Assembly (NCBI GenBank): GCA_011524785.1
Contig: WTJQ01000583.1
Location: 1 to 15,699 of the forward strand
Direction: 5' to 3'
Source of the DNA: Planctomycetota bacterium
Lineage (GTDB): Bacteria; Planctomycetota; UBA1135; GCA-002686595
DNA length: 15,699 nucleotides
Shown: positions 2,116 through 14,435 of the stretch, piece by piece
Layout: every line of letters starts with the position of its first letter
Position numbering within the stretch: the stretch's first letter is position 1
Translations under genes and position numbers: made by a program
The notes under the pieces: generated by a model
What the model saw: the letters and a program-made list of their open reading frames with translations, nothing else
The model's database searches: none
Told to the model about the DNA's origin: nothing

Positions 2116-3570
2116 ATGGCCAGCGAGGTGGGGAGGAGCATCGGCTCGCAGGCAGCGCGGTCCCAGCGCCCCAACCTGCTGATCCTCATGCCCGACCAGC
2201 TGCGGGCGGACTGCCTCGAGGAGGGCTCGGGTGCGCGCATGCCCCACCTGGAGCGGCTCGCTGGTGAGGGCCTCCACCTGCGGCAGGCGTACACGACCAA
2301 TCCCCTGTGCATGCCGGCGCGGGCCTCGTTCCTGACCGGCCGCTACTGCCACCAGCACGGGATGTGGCGCAACGAGGGGCGCCTCGCCCGCTGGACGAGG
2401 ACCTACCTCCACCGGCTGGCCCGCGCGGGCTACCACACCGCTCAGCTGGGCAAGGCCCACGTGTACGACCACGTCCCCTGCCGGGACCTGCGCCTCCAGG
2501 AGCGGCGCATGCGGGCCCTGGGGTTCACCCAGGTCGAGGAGGTGACGGGTCCGATCGCGACGACCCACACGGCCTCGGTGGTCACCGATCACTGGGAGGA
2601 GCGCGGCCTCCTGGAGCTCTTCCGCGAGGACTACGCCCGGCGGCGGGAGGCCGGTCCGCTCGACTCGACCTGGCCGAGTCCCCTCCCCGAGGGCGAGGGC
2701 CTGGACGACCGCATCGGGCAGCTGGCGCTGGACTTCCTCGCCTCCCCGGACGCGCGCCGACCGTTCGCCGCGTTCGTGGGCTTCGCGGGTCCGCACTGGC
2801 CCTGGGACGCGCCGCGGACCTGGGCCGAGCGCTTCGACCCCTCCACCCAGCCGGGACCCCTCCCGGTCACCGAGCCGGAGGCGCACGTTCCCGAGCCGGC
2901 CGCGAGCTTCCAGCGGCACCTGCAGGGGCGGGTCGAGCCGACGGCGGAGCAGGCGGGCCGGATCCGCGCGGCGTACCACGCCAAGGCCGCCCATGTGGAC
3001 GCCTGGATCGGGCGTATCCTCGACGCGCTCGAGGAGCACGGGCTCGCCGACGACACGGCCGTCCTGTTCTGGAGCGACCACGGCGAGATGTTGTGCGACA
3101 AGGGGAGACTCGGGAAGGCGGTGCTCTACGAGCAGGCCGTCCGCGTGCCCGTGGTGCTGCGGCTGCCTCCTGCGATGGGGGGGCCGAGGGGCACGGGGTC
3201 CGACGCCCTCGTCTCCATCGTCGATGCGTTCCCGACGCTGCTCGAGCTCGGGGGCTGCGAGCCGGTGGCCTCCATGGGACGCTCGCTGGTGCCGCTGGCC
3301 GTGGGGGCGACCGACCGTCACCGGGACGCGGTCCTCGCCGAGGTCGATGGGGGGGACGGCTTCGAGGGCGCGAGGATCCGGCGCCGCACGCTGGTGCGGG
3401 ACCGGACCCACAAGCTGGTGACCACGCACCGAGGGGAGCCGCTCTCCCTCCACGACCTCGAGGTCGATCCCCACGAGGAGCACAACCTGCTCGGCACGCC
3501 GGCAGCGGTCCCGCACGTCGAGCGGCTGGAGGCCGAGCGCGTGCGCATGAGGAAGGAGCGTCCGCGGTGA
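2116..3570 (+). CDS. Type I (formylglycine-dependent) sulfatase, CxPAR motif
   Basis: This 484-residue protein is a typical arylsulfatase-family enzyme, hydrolysing sulfate esters with a formylglycine made from Cys. It has NLLILMPDQLRAD (metal-binding D27), the nucleophile block C65-M-P-A-R69 followed by ASFLTG, and the substrate-pocket block GPHWPW. SDHGE follows (D321, H322), then GRLGK (K334) with LYEQAVRVP. Length and motif order fit the family. ATG 2116 was chosen because it lies just before the conserved N-terminal strand and six bases after a -10-like box. The upstream frame is open but lies across the divergent gene. No signal peptide or TM segment is visible, so it is predicted to be cytoplasmic, unlike most secreted polysaccharide sulfatases. 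No formylglycine-generating enzyme is in the window, so maturation must come from elsewhere. It heads a four-gene operon and overlaps the next gene by GTGA. The substrate cannot be read from the sequence. Confidence 0.92.
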   Translation: MASEVGRSIGSQAARSQRPNLLILMPDQLRADCLEEGSGARMPHLERLAGEGLHLRQAYTTNPLCMPARASFLTGRYCHQHGMWRNEGRLARWTRTYLHRLARAGYHTAQLGKAHVYDHVPCRDLRLQERRMRALGFTQVEEVTGPIATTHTASVVTDHWEERGLLELFREDYARRREAGPLDSTWPSPLPEGEGLDDRIGQLALDFLASPDARRPFAAFVGFAGPHWPWDAPRTWAERFDPSTQPGPLPVTEPEAHVPEPAASFQRHLQGRVEPTAEQAGRIRAAYHAKAAHVDAWIGRILDALEEHGLADDTAVLFWSDHGEMLCDKGRLGKAVLYEQAVRVPVVLRLPPAMGGPRGTGSDALVSIVDAFPTLLELGGCEPVASMGRSLVPLAVGATDRHRDAVLAEVDGGDGFEGARIRRRTLVRDRTHKLVTTHRGEPLSLHDLEVDPHEEHNLLGTPAAVPHVERLEAERVRMRKERPR

Positions 3571-5423
3571 CCGGGGAGCCCAGGAGAGCGCTGCTGTTCG
3601 TGGCCTGGGGCGATGCGTTCGTCCAGGAGGTGCTGGACTGCATCGCGGGGAGCGAGCTGCCGCGCGTGCCCCTCTACCTGCTCACCGACGAGACGAGCCA
3701 CGTCCCGGACGGGGCGCCCCTCCAGGTGATCCGCACGTCCTTCCGGCTGCACGGCAAGCTGCGCAAGGCGGAGCTGATCGACCACCTCCCCGAGGACGTC
3801 GACACCTGGATGTTCCTGGACTCGGACACGCGGGTCCTCGGCGACCTGGACCTCGGCTTCCGGATGGCCGAGCGCCACGGGCTGGCCCTCGCGCTCGCTC
3901 CCCACGGCACGCTCGAGACCTTCCGCGGCTTCGGGGAGGTGTTCGACGCCGAGAGCGTCCCGCGAGGCGGACAGGCCCAGTTCAACACGGGCGTCGTCTT
4001 CTTCGCCCGCCGGCCGGAGATCGACGCCGTGTTCGAGGCGTGGCGGGACCTCTGCCTGGCGCACGCGGATCGCAGCCACAGCGATCAGCCGTACTTCAGC
4101 CTGGTCCTCGAGCGGCAGGGCGTCGTCCCCTACACGCTCTCCGCCGCGTTCAACTACCGCGGGATCGGGGAGTGGGTCGCGGGACCGATCCGCGTGTGGC
4201 ACACGCGCGATGCCCTGCCGGCCGGCGCCAACGACTCCCACGCGTTCCGGCGCGTGCGCGAGGGGGAGGTCCTGCTCAGCAGCGGCCGCCCGACGGCCCT
4301 GGATGCGCTGCGAGGGCTCGTCGCCGCGCTGCTCGTGGTCACTGGCGTGCTCTTCACCGTCCTCGCCTCCCGCGGCGAGTCCCTGTGGGCCTGGCTGCAG
4401 GTGCCGAACCTCCTGGCGCTGGTCCTGGTCCTCGGGGCTCCCAGGCTGCTCCGCAGGGTGCGGGGCGCGCTGCCGCTCCTGCTCTCGGCCACGGTCCTCC
4501 TGGCCCTGGTCGTGCTCCCCGAGCTGGGCCTCCGGGTCGCCGGCTTCCAGGCCACGGGCGGCGTCTCCTCGGGTCCCCCGCGGGCCGCCCGCTTCGCGCG
4601 GTTCGTCGCCCACGAGGACCTGCTGTGGACGCGGGACCCGCACGACTCCGACGTGAACGACCAGGGGTTCCCCGGCCCGGAGCTGCCGGGTGCGCCGATC
4701 CCCGGGACGCGGCGGCTGCTGTTCCTCGGCGACTCCTGCACGGCCCAGGGCTTCCCCGCCCGGGTCCAGGACCGCGTGCCGGGGACGGAGGCCGTGACGC
4801 TGGCTTGCCAGGCCTACAGCTCGCTCCAGGGACTGCGCGCGGCGCGTCTCCACGGAGTCGCGCTCGAGCCCGAGGTCGTGTTCGTCGAGTTCGGCTGGAA
4901 CGATCACTGGCGCGCGCGGGGCCTGCCGGACGCCGAGCGTGAGGCACCCTCGACCCGGACGCGGCTCGTGGAGCGCAGCCGCCTGCTCCAGCTGCTGGCA
5001 CGGCGCGGGGGCGGAGGGAGCTCCCCGCCCTCCGAGTGGCCGCGCGTCTCCCCGGACGCCTATCGAGCCAACCTGGAGGCGCTCATCGCCACGTTCGAGG
5101 AGATCCCCGTCGTCCTCGTGACCGCGCCGAGCGCCCACGCGACCCTGGGCGTCCCGGACTACCTGGTGGAGGAGGGCTTCGCCCCCTCGGCCGAGGCCGT
5201 GCTCGAGGAGCACGCCGCCTACAACCGCGTGCTGCGGGAGGTGGCGACGGCCCACTCGACGAGTCGGCTGCTCGACCTCGCGGCGGAGCTCGACGCTCGC
5301 CCCGCCGAGGAGCTGCGGAGCCTCTTCCGGCCCGACGGGATCCACTTCACCGACGCCGGCCTCGACGAGGTCGCGCGTCTCGTCGCCGCGTTCCTCCGCG
5401 AACAAGGGCTGGTGGGCGCATGA
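3567..5423 (+). CDS. GT-A glycosyltransferase / transmembrane / SGNH-hydrolase fusion protein
   Basis: This 618-residue protein begins at GTG 3567, overlapping the sulfatase stop by GTGA, with AAGGAG (3553-3558) eight bases upstream. Residues 1-240 look like a GT8-like GT-A domain: the opening strand RALLFVAW, D85-S86-D87 as the metal/nucleotide-sugar DxD, AQFNTGVVFF, SDQPYFS and a closing VWHTRD. Residues 250-268, 277-291 and 301-318 are hydrophobic and could form two or three membrane spans. Residues about 375-618 form an SGNH/GDSL domain: LLFLGDSC with nucleophile S390, block III GWNDHW with N445, and PDGIHFTDAG with D590 and H593. One chain would thus add a sugar in the cytoplasm and add or remove an acyl group, possibly across the membrane (inference). 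I see no stop, frameshift or change in codon bias between the halves, so the fusion looks real. It is not an architecture I know as standard. Confidence 0.85.
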   Translation: MTGEPRRALLFVAWGDAFVQEVLDCIAGSELPRVPLYLLTDETSHVPDGAPLQVIRTSFRLHGKLRKAELIDHLPEDVDTWMFLDSDTRVLGDLDLGFRMAERHGLALALAPHGTLETFRGFGEVFDAESVPRGGQAQFNTGVVFFARRPEIDAVFEAWRDLCLAHADRSHSDQPYFSLVLERQGVVPYTLSAAFNYRGIGEWVAGPIRVWHTRDALPAGANDSHAFRRVREGEVLLSSGRPTALDALRGLVAALLVVTGVLFTVLASRGESLWAWLQVPNLLALVLVLGAPRLLRRVRGALPLLLSATVLLALVVLPELGLRVAGFQATGGVSSGPPRAARFARFVAHEDLLWTRDPHDSDVNDQGFPGPELPGAPIPGTRRLLFLGDSCTAQGFPARVQDRVPGTEAVTLACQAYSSLQGLRAARLHGVALEPEVVFVEFGWNDHWRARGLPDAEREAPSTRTRLVERSRLLQLLARRGGGGSSPPSEWPRVSPDAYRANLEALIATFEEIPVVLVTAPSAHATLGVPDYLVEEGFAPSAEAVLEEHAAYNRVLREVATAHSTSRLLDLAAELDARPAEELRSLFRPDGIHFTDAGLDEVARLVAAFLREQGLVGA

Positions 5424-6187
5424 GCGGTCCGATCGTCGCCGTCGCGGGGATGCATCGCTCGGGGACCTCCCTGTTCGCGCGCTTCCTGAACGACTCGGGG
5501 ATCGACCTGGGGGAGCGGCTCCACGTGGACCTGCGCACCAACCCGTACGGCCACTACGAGGACGAGGACTTCCTCGAGCTGCAGCGCGGGGAGCTGGCGC
5601 GGGCCTTCGGGGGGGAGGACTACCGCGTGGCGGAGCCGTTCCAGCGCTCGGAGTCCTTCGAGGAGCGCGCCCGCGCGCTGCTGGAGCGCAAGCGGGCGCA
5701 CCACGGGGACGCCGCGTGGGGATGGAAGGACCCCCGGACGACCCTGTTCCTCGACTTCTGGCGCGAGCTCGTCCCCGAGCTGCACGTGGTGGGCCTGCTG
5801 CGTCCGCCGCGCGACGTGCTGGACTCGCTCTGCCGGCGGACGCGCGCCTACTTCAGCGTGAGGCGCAAGGACCACCTGCTGCGCGTCATCACGCACTACA
5901 ACCAGGCCCTCCTCGAGCACGCGCGGAGTCATCCCGATCACACGCACGTGGTCGACCTGCCCACCCTGCTGGCACACCCGCGCACGGTGCTCGAGCCGCT
6001 GTCCGCGCGCCTCGGCGTGGAGCTCGACGCGGAGCTCTTCGCTGGACAGTTCGACGGCAACGCCATGTCGCGGTCTCGGCGCGCCTCCGTGCTCCTGCAT
6101 CGCCGCTCCCTGCGCGCGGCCTGCGAGGTGCACGGAGCGCTCGAGGCGTGCGCGGTGACGCTCGGCAGCGGTGGAGGGAGCGCCTGA
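5420..6187 (+). CDS. PAPS-dependent sulfotransferase family protein
   Basis: This 255-residue protein begins at ATG 5420, overlapping the fusion gene by ATGA. The N-terminal P-loop-like block GMHRSGTSL (10-18) is the 5'-phosphosulfate-binding motif of sulfotransferases. GWKDPRT (101-107) follows, and the 3'-phosphate-binding block is GLLRPPRDVLDSL (125-137). NPYGHYEDEDFLEL (41-54) is typical of bacterial 'sulfotransferase family' proteins in glycan clusters. It should move a sulfuryl group from 3'-phosphoadenosine 5'-phosphosulfate to a hydroxyl or amino group. The acceptor is unknown; a sugar is inferred from the neighbouring glycosyltransferases. There is no signal peptide, so it is cytoplasmic. 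It is clearly different in sequence from the other two sulfotransferases here. It ends one base into the next gene (TGATG). Confidence 0.88.
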   Translation: MSGPIVAVAGMHRSGTSLFARFLNDSGIDLGERLHVDLRTNPYGHYEDEDFLELQRGELARAFGGEDYRVAEPFQRSESFEERARALLERKRAHHGDAAWGWKDPRTTLFLDFWRELVPELHVVGLLRPPRDVLDSLCRRTRAYFSVRRKDHLLRVITHYNQALLEHARSHPDHTHVVDLPTLLAHPRTVLEPLSARLGVELDAELFAGQFDGNAMSRSRRASVLLHRRSLRAACEVHGALEACAVTLGSGGGSA

Positions 6188-7467
6188 TGCGGGGCGCCGA
6201 GTCCGACGGGTCCGAGGTGCCGGCGCGGGTTCCCGGGCTCGCGGCCGCGACCGTCGGCCTCCTCGCGATCGGGGCCGCTTGGGTCGGCTACCAGGGCTGG
6301 CGCCTCCTCCTGCAGCCCCTCCCCAAGGGGGCGATCGACCTCAAGCTCCGCTTCCGCGAGGTGGCCCTGTGGTTCCAGGGTGAGCCCGTCTACGGCGTGC
6401 GAGCGGACGCGGTCTACCCGCCGGCCAGCTACGCGATCCTGCGGCCCGTGCTCGACCACGGCTCGCTCCCCCTGGCGCGCTGGCTCTGGGGCGGGTTGAC
6501 CGTCCTGGCGCTCATTGCGCTGTGCCGCCGGTTCGCGGCCGAGAGCGGCGCCCAGGGCAAGGCCGCGCGGCGGCTGGCCATGGTCGTGCCCCTCGCGCTC
6601 TACCCCGTGGGGGCGACCATCGGCAACGGGCAGGTGGGGCTGCTCATCGCGGTCTGCCTGCTGCTCGTGCTTCCATTGCTGCGTCGTGAGGAGCGCTCGC
6701 TCGGGCAGGACGGGCTGATCGCCCTGCTGATGCTCGTCGCGCTGGTGAAGCCCTCCCTGGCCGCGTTCTTCTTCCTCGTGGTGCTCTTCGCCAAGGGGGG
6801 CCTGCGGCCCGCGGCGCTCACCGTCGCCGGGTACGGCCTCCTGACCTGGCTCGCGTCCCTCCCGCAGCGGAAGGGGCCCTTCGAGCTGCTCCTCAAGTGG
6901 AAGGACCGCAGCCAGGCGGGTTCGATCTGGGGCGCCCGGTTCGGGGAGGGAGCGATCATCGACCCCGCGGTGCGGCCCTCGCACCTGCCGCAGGTCGCGC
7001 AGGAGCGCATCGCCGAGCAGATGGAGCGCGGGCTCGTCATCAAGAGCATCAACCTCCACAGCCTGGTCTCGTACTTCGGCCAGCCGCGGTACTCCTTCCA
7101 CGCCTCGTTCGTGCTGCTGGGGATCTTCGCGGTGTGGCTGTTCCTGCGCCGTGGCGCGAGCCTGCTGACGCTCATGGGGGTGACCGCGGTCGTCACGCTC
7201 TTCGCGGGCTACCACGCGTGGTACGACCACGTGATCCTGCTGCTGGCGCTGCTCGCCCTGCTGCGCGTGGCGTGGACGCAGGACTCGCGGCCGGCGGCCG
7301 TCCTCGGGCTGCTGCTCGTCCTGTTCCTCCTGGCTCCCGGCGGCGTCTACGCCCTCCCCGTGGCCTGGAGCAACGCCTACGTCGTGGGCCAGACGCTCGT
7401 GTTCCTCGCCGCCGGGGTGTTCCTCGCGCGGCGGGCCGCTGCCGAGCACGCTCAGGCTCAGCGATAG
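6187..7467 (+). CDS. GT87-like (DUF2029) polytopic membrane glycosyltransferase
   Basis: This 426-residue protein starts at ATG 6187 inside TGATG, with GGAGGGAG at 6173-6180 as ribosome-binding site. It has about ten hydrophobic spans. The first periplasmic loop holds IDLKLRFREVALWFQGEPVY, with a candidate catalytic Asp at 51, and then YPPAS (77-81). GNGQVGLL (146-153) opens a later span. Asp after the first span, then the G-x-P-x-Y and YPP motifs and an NGQ-x-G motif, is the usual signature of GT87/DUF2029 enzymes. The characterised members use polyprenyl-phosphate mannose. The predicted role is therefore to add a sugar from a lipid-phosphate donor on the outer face of the membrane. Donor and acceptor are not readable from the sequence. 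It is the last gene of the + operon and its final ten bases overlap the end of the opposing operon. Confidence 0.8.
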   Translation: MRGAESDGSEVPARVPGLAAATVGLLAIGAAWVGYQGWRLLLQPLPKGAIDLKLRFREVALWFQGEPVYGVRADAVYPPASYAILRPVLDHGSLPLARWLWGGLTVLALIALCRRFAAESGAQGKAARRLAMVVPLALYPVGATIGNGQVGLLIAVCLLLVLPLLRREERSLGQDGLIALLMLVALVKPSLAAFFFLVVLFAKGGLRPAALTVAGYGLLTWLASLPQRKGPFELLLKWKDRSQAGSIWGARFGEGAIIDPAVRPSHLPQVAQERIAEQMERGLVIKSINLHSLVSYFGQPRYSFHASFVLLGIFAVWLFLRRGASLLTLMGVTAVVTLFAGYHAWYDHVILLLALLALLRVAWTQDSRPAAVLGLLLVLFLLAPGGVYALPVAWSNAYVVGQTLVFLAAGVFLARRAAAEHAQAQR

Positions 7468-11531: not shown

Positions 11532-12866
11532 TCAGTCGCCTCCGTAGCCGATGGCCTCGAGCTGCTGACGCGCGGGTGCTCCGAGGGCCTCTCCCTCCGT
11601 CGACTCCACGCGCGGGTGGCGGCGCTCCCAGTCCGCGAGGTGGCGCGCGAGGTCCGCCGCGATCTCGGGGTGCTGCTCGAGCCGGTTGGTCGCTGCACCG
11701 TCCTCCGCGCCGCCCGCTGCCTGGAGCTCGACGGGGTCCGTCCCCGGATGACCGTCCCGGTTCTCCACGTAGCGCCACTCGGCCGCGTACGCCGCGAGCT
11801 TCTCCCGCTCGCGCCAGGCGGTCTCCGCCACGAAGACCTCGGGGAGGTCCGGGAGGCTCGTGCCCGTGAGCAGGCCCGCGAGCGAGACGCCGTGGAGATC
11901 CGGGCTGGGGCGGAGCCCGCACAGCTCGAGGACGGTCGGCATGACGTCGATCAGCCGCACGCGGTCGGGGATGCGCCGGGCGTCCAGGGTCCCGGGGCGC
12001 GAGAGGATCAAGGGCACCTGCAGCTGGGTCTCGTACAGGAGGTCGCCGTGGGGCTTCACCACCACCGCGGCGTGGTCCCCGTCCAGCGCCTCCCCGTGGT
12101 CGCTCGTCACGACCACCAGCGCGTCCGTCCAGCCCTCGAGCGCACGCAGGTCGGCGACGAAGCGCCCGACGTCGTGCGAGACCTGGGCCACGGCGGCGAG
12201 GTAGCCCTGGTCCGGCTCGCCCTCGAAGCGCTCCCGGAACTCGGGACGCAGCTGGCGCTCCCGCTCGTGCACCTCCATCAGGTCCACCTGGAGGAAGCCC
12301 GGAGCGTCACCGTGGTCCGCCGCCCACTCGAGCGCCCTGCGCAGCACCCGGCGCGAGCGGGGGAGGGTGACGTGGCCGAAGGCGTAGGTCTCCTGGGCGT
12401 CCCCTCGATCCATGAACTCGAACACCACGTCGCTGTCGATGTACGTGTCGAAGCCACGATCGAAGCCGAAGCAGGTGTTGATGTTGGGGTTCGCCGTGAT
12501 GCCGAACGTGTTCCAGCCCGCGGCTCCGAGCTCCTGGGCCAGGGTCCGCGTGGTCGCGGGGAGGGCGTCCCCGGCCTCCTTGAAGATGCCCAGCCCTCGC
12601 GGGTGCAGACCGGTGACGAGTCCCGCGATCGAGGGACGCGTCCAGCTGCAGGGCGCGAGGACGTCCTCGAAGACGATGCTCTCGCTCGCGAGCGCGTCCA
12701 GTTCGGGGCTGACGTCCTCGGGTCCGCCGTAGCAGCCGAGCCGGTCGGCACGGAGGGTGTCCACGATCACGAGGACGACGCTCGGGCCCTCCGGGCGCTC
12801 CCCTCCACAGCCCTGGAGCGCCGCCGCCGCGGCGCCGAGCACGAGGACGGGGGCGAGCGGACGCAT
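11532..12866 (-). CDS. Sulfatase-like lipoprotein with Thr nucleophile position (T-R-P-S-I)
   Basis: This 444-residue protein starts at ATG 12866; an in-frame TAG 12 bases upstream excludes earlier starts. Residues 1-19 are a lipoprotein signal ending in LQG-C20, so the mature protein should be lipid-anchored outside the cytoplasm. LVIVDTLRADRLGCYG supplies metal ligand D36, and TSDHGE (D256, H257) and VPLILSRPG follow. The nucleophile block is TRPSIAGLVTG (76-86). It keeps the Pro and Ser of C-x-P-S-R, but has Thr76 for Cys and Ile80 for Arg. It is therefore unlikely to be a formylglycine sulfatase and may be a Thr-dependent phosphodiesterase or transferase, or have lost activity. C73 lies three residues before T76, out of register. 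The tail is LEAIGYGGD. It is the first gene of the five-gene - operon and shares a divergent region with another sulfatase-like lipoprotein. Confidence 0.87.
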   Translation of the reverse strand: MRPLAPVLVLGAAAAALQGCGGERPEGPSVVLVIVDTLRADRLGCYGGPEDVSPELDALASESIVFEDVLAPCSWTRPSIAGLVTGLHPRGLGIFKEAGDALPATTRTLAQELGAAGWNTFGITANPNINTCFGFDRGFDTYIDSDVVFEFMDRGDAQETYAFGHVTLPRSRRVLRRALEWAADHGDAPGFLQVDLMEVHERERQLRPEFRERFEGEPDQGYLAAVAQVSHDVGRFVADLRALEGWTDALVVVTSDHGEALDGDHAAVVVKPHGDLLYETQLQVPLILSRPGTLDARRIPDRVRLIDVMPTVLELCGLRPSPDLHGVSLAGLLTGTSLPDLPEVFVAETAWREREKLAAYAAEWRYVENRDGHPGTDPVELQAAGGAEDGAATNRLEQHPEIAADLARHLADWERRHPRVESTEGEALGAPARQQLEAIGYGGD

Positions 12867-13002: not shown

Positions 13003-13007
13003 GTGTG

Positions 13008-14435
13008 ATGGACGCCACGGCCATGCCCATGACCCGTTCTCGCCACTCGACGCTCCGCGCGGCCCTCCTGGGAGGTCTGCTCGCGCTGCTGCCTGCGTGC
13101 GGTGCGGACCAAGGGCCCGAGCCCTGGAGCGTGCTCCTCGTCACGCTGGACACCACGCGTGCCGACCGGCTGGGCTGCTACGGCTACGGACAGGACACGA
13201 CCCCGAACCTCGACGCACTCGCAGCCGACGGCGTGCGCTTCGAGTTCGCGGTGTCGACCGCGGGCATCACGCCCGTGGCCCATGCGTCGATCCTCACGGG
13301 CCTGAACCCGCCGCGCCACGGCGTGCGCGTCTTCCACGGAGCTCCTGGCAGCTACCTCGACCGGACCACGCCGACCCTCGCGCGCATCCTCGGGGAGGCC
13401 GGGCACGCCACGGGGGCCTTCGTCAGCGCCTACCCCGCGTCCGAGCGCTTCGGCCTCGACCACGGCTTCGATCACTTCGACAACGGGGCCAAGGACAGCG
13501 CCCTCCACACCGACCCCGAGTTCGAGCCGAAGCTGGGCGTGCTGCGAGGCGCTGGCGACTGGCAGCAGCGTCGCTGGGTCCCCACCCAGCGACGCGCCGA
13601 TGCGGTGACGGACAAGGCGATCGCCTGGCTCGAGGAGCAGGACGGACCCGTGCTGCAGTGGGTGCACTACTTCGATCCCCACGACTCCTTCCTCGTCCCG
13701 CCCCGCAAGTTCCTGCAGCGTTTCGAGGCGCGTCGTGACGGCCCCGACCGCATGGCGCGCGTCTACGACGCTGACCTCAACTTCATGGACCACCACGTCG
13801 GGCGCCTGCTCGAGGCGTACCGCGAGCGGGGGCGCATGGAGCGGACGATCGTGCTGGTGACCGCGGACCATGGGCAGGGCCTGGGGGACCACGACTGGGA
13901 GCAGCACCGGATCCTCTACCGCGAGCAGCTCCAGATCCCCCTCCTCGCGCGCTGGCCCGGCGGACCACGCGGCCGCGTGGTCCCGGACCTCGTCCGTAAC
14001 ACGGACCTCCTCCCGACGATCACCCAGCTGCTGGGGCTCGAGGCCCCGCGCGGGCTCGACGGCCAGAGCGTCGTCGACCTTCTCGATGCCTCGGGGGAGC
14101 CGCGCGTGGCCTACGCCGAGGCGCTGAACACCCTGGACAGTCACGCGCCGGGCGCCCTCCCCGAGCGCCACAAGGACCTGCTCTTCTGCGCCGTCGAGCG
14201 CGACTGGAAGCTGATCCACCACGTCGAGCACCCCGAGAACAGCGAGCTCTACGACCTCCGCGAGGATCCGGGGGAGCTCGTCAACGTGCTCGACGAGCAC
14301 CCCGAGGAGGCCGCGCGCCTGCTCGCGTTCCTCGAGGAGTCGGGCGGCATGGCCGTCCGGACCGGGGAGGTGGACCCGATCGAGGAAGAGGCCGCTCGCA
14401 AGCTGGAGGCCCTTGGCTACTCCGGGGACGAGTGA
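13008..14435 (+). CDS. Sulfatase-like lipoprotein with Thr nucleophile position (T-P-V-A-H)
   Basis: The start is uncertain: GTG 13005, ATG 13008, ATG 13023 and ATG 13029 are all in frame before the signal peptide. ATG 13008 gives 475 residues. A basic region (TRSRHSTLR) and a hydrophobic stretch lead to a lipobox LPA-C31, so the protein should be lipid-anchored outside the cytoplasm. VTLDTTRADRLGCYG supplies D48, VHYFDPHDSF is the substrate-pocket block, and TADHGQGLGDH (D287, H288) and IPLLARWPGGPRG follow. The nucleophile block is TPVAHASILTG (88-98): Thr88 replaces Cys and His92 replaces Arg, as in the T-x-x-x-H block of nucleotide pyrophosphatase/phosphodiesterases. A phospho-ester activity is thus more likely than sulfatase (inference). 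The C-terminus is LEALGYSGDE. It is divergent from a paralogue across 138 bp and followed at once by a membrane glycosyltransferase. Confidence 0.87.
   Translation: MDATAMPMTRSRHSTLRAALLGGLLALLPACGADQGPEPWSVLLVTLDTTRADRLGCYGYGQDTTPNLDALAADGVRFEFAVSTAGITPVAHASILTGLNPPRHGVRVFHGAPGSYLDRTTPTLARILGEAGHATGAFVSAYPASERFGLDHGFDHFDNGAKDSALHTDPEFEPKLGVLRGAGDWQQRRWVPTQRRADAVTDKAIAWLEEQDGPVLQWVHYFDPHDSFLVPPRKFLQRFEARRDGPDRMARVYDADLNFMDHHVGRLLEAYRERGRMERTIVLVTADHGQGLGDHDWEQHRILYREQLQIPLLARWPGGPRGRVVPDLVRNTDLLPTITQLLGLEAPRGLDGQSVVDLLDASGEPRVAYAEALNTLDSHAPGALPERHKDLLFCAVERDWKLIHHVEHPENSELYDLREDPGELVNVLDEHPEEAARLLAFLEESGGMAVRTGEVDPIEEEAARKLEALGYSGDE

Follow-up and report, generated by a model that had tools for sequence, protein, structure and literature searches.

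A GT8-type glycosyltransferase joined to three membrane helices and an SGNH hydrolase domain in one planctomycete protein, encoded in a probable sulfated-glycan cluster

The window analyzed here, a stretch of 15,699 nucleotides of contig WTJQ01000583.1 from a Planctomycetota bacterium (GCA_011524785.1), carries on its forward strand a gene at 3567..5423 whose open frame of 618 aa encodes a fusion of a GT8-like glycosyltransferase, three transmembrane helices and an SGNH hydrolase. Third-position GC was 0.947 over this gene and 0.47–0.58 in the same frame upstream (four 300-base blocks), and a Shine-Dalgarno-like AAGGAG is located 8 nt upstream of its GTG start. As a preliminary description of this DNA had pointed out, the gene sits between a sulfatase and a sulfotransferase, and we found that it overlaps both. 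The stop of the upstream sulfatase (PF00884, with a CMPAR motif; 2116..3570, +; scanned from 2110, with the ATG at 2116 chosen as start) overlaps the GTG that begins the fusion gene as GTGA, the stop of the fusion gene overlaps the ATG of the sulfotransferase (PF13469; 5420..6187, +) as ATGA, and the stop of the sulfotransferase overlaps the start of a GT87-family membrane glycosyltransferase (PF09594, E 1.5e-9, scanned from 6184; 6187..7467, +) as TGATG. Given these start-to-stop overlaps on one strand, the four genes look co-translated. The contig as a whole encodes the CMPAR sulfatase, three sulfotransferases, two Glycos_transf_1 proteins, the GT87 protein and a PMT_2-like membrane protein. 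Of the four PF00884 sulfatase-family proteins of the window, one, the CMPAR protein at 2116–3570, has the active-site motif [CS]xPxR; those at 772–2076 (−), 11532–12866 (−) and 13005–14435 (+) lack it and therefore may not be formylglycine sulfatases.

Residues 1–230 (3567..4256, +) form a GT-A glycosyltransferase domain of GT8 type, as indicated by its model (pLDDT 95.5), structure matches and motifs. Searched alone, the domain returned the GT-A fold, with glycogenin-1, LARGE1 and LgtC as structure matches; it aligned with LARGE1 from the DxD through the DQ motif, and GT6 enzymes tied in fold score. GT8 enzymes are characterized by DxD, NxG and DQ motifs and a C-terminal metal-ligand histidine, and the window domain has D85xD87, N140TG142, D173Q174 and W211H212, with H212 as a candidate for that histidine. 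Both aspartates of D85-S86-D87, which had been singled out as a DxD motif from the sequence, were invariant in 52 aligned sequences, as were G142, D173, Q174 and W211, while N140 and H212 were kept in at least 90% of the rows. The window protein had no PF01501 match at E ≤ 1 in the Pfam scan. PF01501 was matched at E ≤ 0.01 by 27 of the 52 aligned sequences, the window's own domain not among them, and a stand-alone relative in a genome of the same order (G049) scored 14.7 bits, below the cut-off of 24.3. Given these absent or below-cut-off matches, we refer to the domain as GT8-type and do not file it as a member of PF01501.

Three membrane helices follow at residues 244–267, 272–290 and 299–324 (4296..4538, +), assigned from hydropathy, charge and the helices of the AlphaFold2 model, so that the "two or three" hydrophobic segments first placed at residues 250–318 resolve into three helices spanning residues 244–324. 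Three hydrophobic segments precede the SGNH domain in all 11 proteins compared, six fused and five short. The loop between helices 2 and 3 is arginine-rich, with 4–6 Arg/Lys in each of the six fused proteins, and the loop between segments 1 and 2 of the fused proteins has one Arg/Lys. By the positive-inside rule, the Arg/Lys-rich loop between helices 2 and 3, together with the number of helices, predicts an N-in, C-out topology with the glycosyltransferase inside and the SGNH domain outside, as the preliminary description had proposed. The five short proteins had the same charge sense, more weakly, with P0012 neutral. The full-length AlphaFold2 model had a pLDDT of 88.9 and a pTM of 0.62, a value at which the relative placement of the domains is not fixed by the model.

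The C-terminal part of the protein (residues 380–618; 4704..5420, +) is an SGNH/GDSL hydrolase domain by profile match, fold and motifs. PF13472 was the sole Pfam family above cut-off in the fusion protein, and AlphaFold2 gave a confident SGNH domain for which the structure search led to GDSL acylhydrolases. The motifs are G388DSC, A416 (Block II), G443WND446 and D590GIH593, and the four residues named beforehand, S390 (Block I), N445 (Block III) and D590 and H593 (Block V), were all confirmed and invariant in the six fused proteins. Active-site motifs checked in both domains were kept in all six, except at residue 416 of the window copy. The Block II glycine of SGNH enzymes lines the oxyanion hole; codon 416 (4812–4814) encodes alanine in the window copy, the 10 other proteins in the alignment of 11, including the other five fused ones, have glycine at this position, and a glycine of 1yzf aligns with it. 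Ala416 may indicate a weaker SGNH site in the window copy, or may be a harmless change. Architecture, folds and motifs were all computed directly, and the models, structure searches and motifs, with both a GT-A and an SGNH fold found, bear out the original claim that a single polypeptide unites a GT-A glycosyltransferase, membrane spans and an SGNH domain.

A search for full-length homologues in 5.8 billion proteins (7995 candidates scored, cut-off E ≤ 1e-3) returned 11 matches: the window protein, five further full-length fused proteins encoded on other contigs (53–70% identity, 98–99% coverage), and five proteins of 381–398 aa that comprise the membrane-SGNH part and no glycosyltransferase. 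The preliminary description had allowed for homologues that are always encoded as two separate genes, and instead the same full-length architecture was recovered five times. The stand-alone membrane SGNH proteins had 41–47% identity across the shared half. Each half also occurs by itself, the glycosyltransferase as a protein of about 250 aa and the SGNH part as a protein of about 390 aa with three hydrophobic segments. Used as a single-sequence query, the glycosyltransferase domain had no match at E ≤ 1e-3 among 3094 candidates; a 7-row profile found 77 relatives (7997 candidates scored), 72 of them 237–313 aa long, in a search that takes proteins of 0.55–1.75 times the query length and has the 618-aa fused proteins outside its range. 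P0051 (468 aa) has the same glycosyltransferase domain joined to an N-terminal methyltransferase.

The fusion is true and rare. We scanned one genome each of 84,980 species with two short peptide patterns present in all six fused proteins, a scan in which records for the window's genome, or for genomes very close to it, may be missing, and none of the best 80 of 124 relatives matched N-terminal of residue 237. Among the matches listed for a full-length profile in 61 genomes, including the window's own, the window protein alone covered both halves. Of the 154 genomes searched for the order, 3 matched the glycosyltransferase profile (a search by class gave the same 154), as did 5 of 392 sampled from the phylum. 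Besides the window, G049 has a stand-alone match at E 6.5e-108, four further matches are weak, with E from 2.2e-7 to 1.3e-9, and six same-genus genomes (77–91% complete) had no match. No SGNH motif or part was seen in the stretches read for the six others, one of which (G351) has a frame that runs off its locus; within the 154 class genomes, the fusion was found in the window's own genome only. A split gene pair was also sought in G049, where the contig with the stand-alone glycosyltransferase had no SGNH match among the matches listed. The weak matches in G137 and G410 are frames of 300 and 325 residues without SGNH. In G351 (L106 1–2223, −), a distant GT8-like domain starts a frame whose length is 741 aa or more; judged by eye, this frame continues into cupin-like and radical-SAM-like, non-SGNH domains.

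Phylogenies were computed for both halves. An 81-row glycosyltransferase tree (75 of the 77 profile matches, two short fragments being dropped, plus the six fused proteins) and an 80-row version (74 matches, with the glycosyltransferase part of P0051 used and the very long branch P0089 omitted) each placed the fused proteins in one clade with an SH-aLRT of 99. The 32-row SGNH tree (six fused proteins, five short proteins and 21 of the 80 loci from the species scan) likewise had the fused proteins as one clade, SH-aLRT 99. P0007 branched first among the fused proteins in the 81-row glycosyltransferase tree and in the SGNH tree, all of these trees being unrooted products of quick searches. Given that the fused clade appears in both the glycosyltransferase and the SGNH trees, a single fusion event followed by descent as a unit fits best and is the probable history. 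In such a scenario, a stand-alone cytosolic glycosyltransferase would have been fused onto the N-terminus of a pre-existing SGNH protein with three transmembrane segments; as that protein would already have been N-in, a cytosolic domain could have been added without a change of topology.

The window cluster probably builds a sulfated surface glycan, as suggested by the overlaps between sulfatase, fusion, sulfotransferase and GT87 genes and by sulfotransferases beside or fused to the glycosyltransferase in two genomes of the same order. In G049 (L120 8249–10832, contig C88), the stand-alone glycosyltransferase directly follows two sulfotransferase genes; a GT2 gene lies nearby on the opposite strand. 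In G477 (L107 1372–2865, −), a distant GT8-like domain (E 2.2e-8) is located behind a Sulfotransfer_2 domain (PF03567, E 1.9e-13) in a possible bifunctional glycosyltransferase-sulfotransferase, and a second sulfotransferase gene at 529–1371 adjoins this fusion. Given the neighborhoods in the window, G049 and G477, all three class genomes with a profile match tie the glycosyltransferase to sulfotransferases. A putative sulfated glycosaminoglycan cluster with a sulfotransferase among GT2 and GT4 genes is reported for Pontiella sulfatireligans (PMC7356697). Around the stand-alone SGNH relatives (22 loci; 120 crudely called ORFs, 100 of them scanned), no MBOAT, AT3 or glycosyltransferase family was among the 25 commonest of 136 neighbor families, and Sulfatase occurred twice among the 100 ORFs. 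Given these heterogeneous neighbors without enrichment of glycan genes, membership of the SGNH family does not by itself imply that the substrate is a glycan.

We propose, with about an even chance of being right, that the protein is an inner-membrane surface-glycan enzyme of single fusion origin with a cytosolic glycosyltransferase, three helices and a periplasmic SGNH esterase. The GT8-type domain would transfer one sugar in the cytosol from an NDP-sugar, with retention, onto a membrane-bound, lipid-linked or nascent glycan; the three helices would lead the chain into the periplasm, where the SGNH domain would meet the glycan after its flipping or export and, most likely, remove O-acyl groups from it as an esterase. 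The topology, the glycan substrate, the direction of the esterase and the coupling of the two steps are what we infer in this proposal. The preliminary description had left open whether the SGNH domain adds or removes acyl groups, and the window leans weakly toward removal: none of its 13 proteins scanned with Pfam was an MBOAT or AT3 protein, and the fusion has neither a fused AT3 domain nor an adjacent MBOAT or AT3 gene, the arrangements of AT3-SGNH and MBOAT-SGNH systems. Given this, and given that each MBOAT gene of the genome has another possible partner, we prefer hydrolysis over transfer.

The SGNH domain could instead be an acyltransferase that places on the glycan acyl groups delivered across the membrane by a distinct MBOAT or AT3 protein, like PatB or the SGNH domain of OafB. 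AT3-SGNH and MBOAT-SGNH are known membrane-linked surface-glycan systems (PMC7448272, PMC12148441, PMC9558356), and the window's genome contains two matches to MBOAT as well as matches to AT3 on four of its contigs. Transfer is nonetheless rather unlikely, given the lack of either gene among the 13 window proteins scanned, the absence of MBOAT and AT3 from the 25 commonest neighbor families of the stand-alone relatives, and the GxND motif kept in the SGNH domain. This motif is usual in hydrolases. Moreover, both MBOAT genes, on loci L121 and L122 (contigs C78 and C195), adjoin other candidate partners. One lies next to an AlgX-like gene (PF16822, E 5.1e-13) and the other next to an ORF of 341 aa without a Pfam match at E ≤ 0.01; AlgI and AlgX are an MBOAT-SGNH pair, and the two loci may hold polysaccharide acylation pairs.

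Alternatively, the membrane-SGNH part might serve mainly to anchor or recruit the glycosyltransferase, with the two active sites working on unrelated substrates or with a weak SGNH site. The lower conservation of the SGNH half is in line with this (mean pairwise identity over 15 pairs 56.8%, vs 68.4% for the glycosyltransferase half), as are the alanine in Block II of the window copy and the lack of a tie to glycan genes among stand-alone SGNH relatives. However, GDSC, FGWNDHW and DGIHF are kept in all six fused proteins, beyond what an anchor needs, and we regard an anchoring role as improbable. An artefact in which frameshift, sequencing error or mis-assembly joined neighboring genes was worth testing, as the genome is 79% complete and split over 652 contigs, but it has no positive support, is refuted by the five full-length homologues on other contigs, and can be considered extremely improbable. 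Tetranucleotide correlations of three segments that span the first 13,500 bases with 12 sampled contigs (0.974–0.984) fell within the range of those contigs against each other (0.969–0.990); mis-binning was rejected, as the composition of the window fits its genome.

Beyond the esterase reading, it is possible, and we suggest it tentatively, that one polypeptide, a new type of bifunctional transmembrane enzyme, couples cytosolic elongation of a glycan to acyl-ester editing of the same glycan across the membrane. In general, sugars are added in the cytosol and acyl groups edited on the outside by different proteins. Their fusion across the membrane in nature would argue that both steps serve one glycan and would make their coupling directly testable; if this bifunctional reading is true, assembly and outer-face tailoring would be held to a 1:1 ratio and to one location. 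The fusion would also point to a substrate for widespread, uncharacterized membrane SGNH proteins, and it draws attention to a probable gene cluster for a sulfated glycan in this planctomycete lineage.

The protein is a new combination of known domains. Its domain order was not recognized as a described family at the outset, and this impression held: we found no description of a GT-SGNH fusion in the literature searched, which covered few subscription journals and parts of sources including PMC9487903 and PMC9558356. The Pontiella sulfatireligans cluster resembles the window in its mix of sulfotransferase and glycosyltransferase genes but, in the part of the source available, no GT-SGNH fusion is noted there (PMC7356697). 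Compared with GT8 enzymes such as glycogenin, the xylosyltransferase domain of LARGE1 and LgtC (PF01501), the window domain lacks a Pfam match of its own and runs into a membrane-SGNH module. The stand-alone membrane GDSL/SGNH proteins (PF13472) of Planctomycetota, Zixiibacteriota, Acidobacteriota and others share the SGNH motifs of the fusion, and the five short ones also its three hydrophobic segments, but they lack the glycosyltransferase. AT3-SGNH proteins (OafB, OatA) and PatA/PatB have a membrane-linked extracytoplasmic SGNH domain acting on a surface carbohydrate (PMC9558356, PMC12148441), as is proposed for the fusion. In contrast to these AT3-SGNH and MBOAT-SGNH systems, the partner of the SGNH domain in the window, without an AT3 domain, is a glycosyltransferase predicted to be cytosolic, together with three helices.
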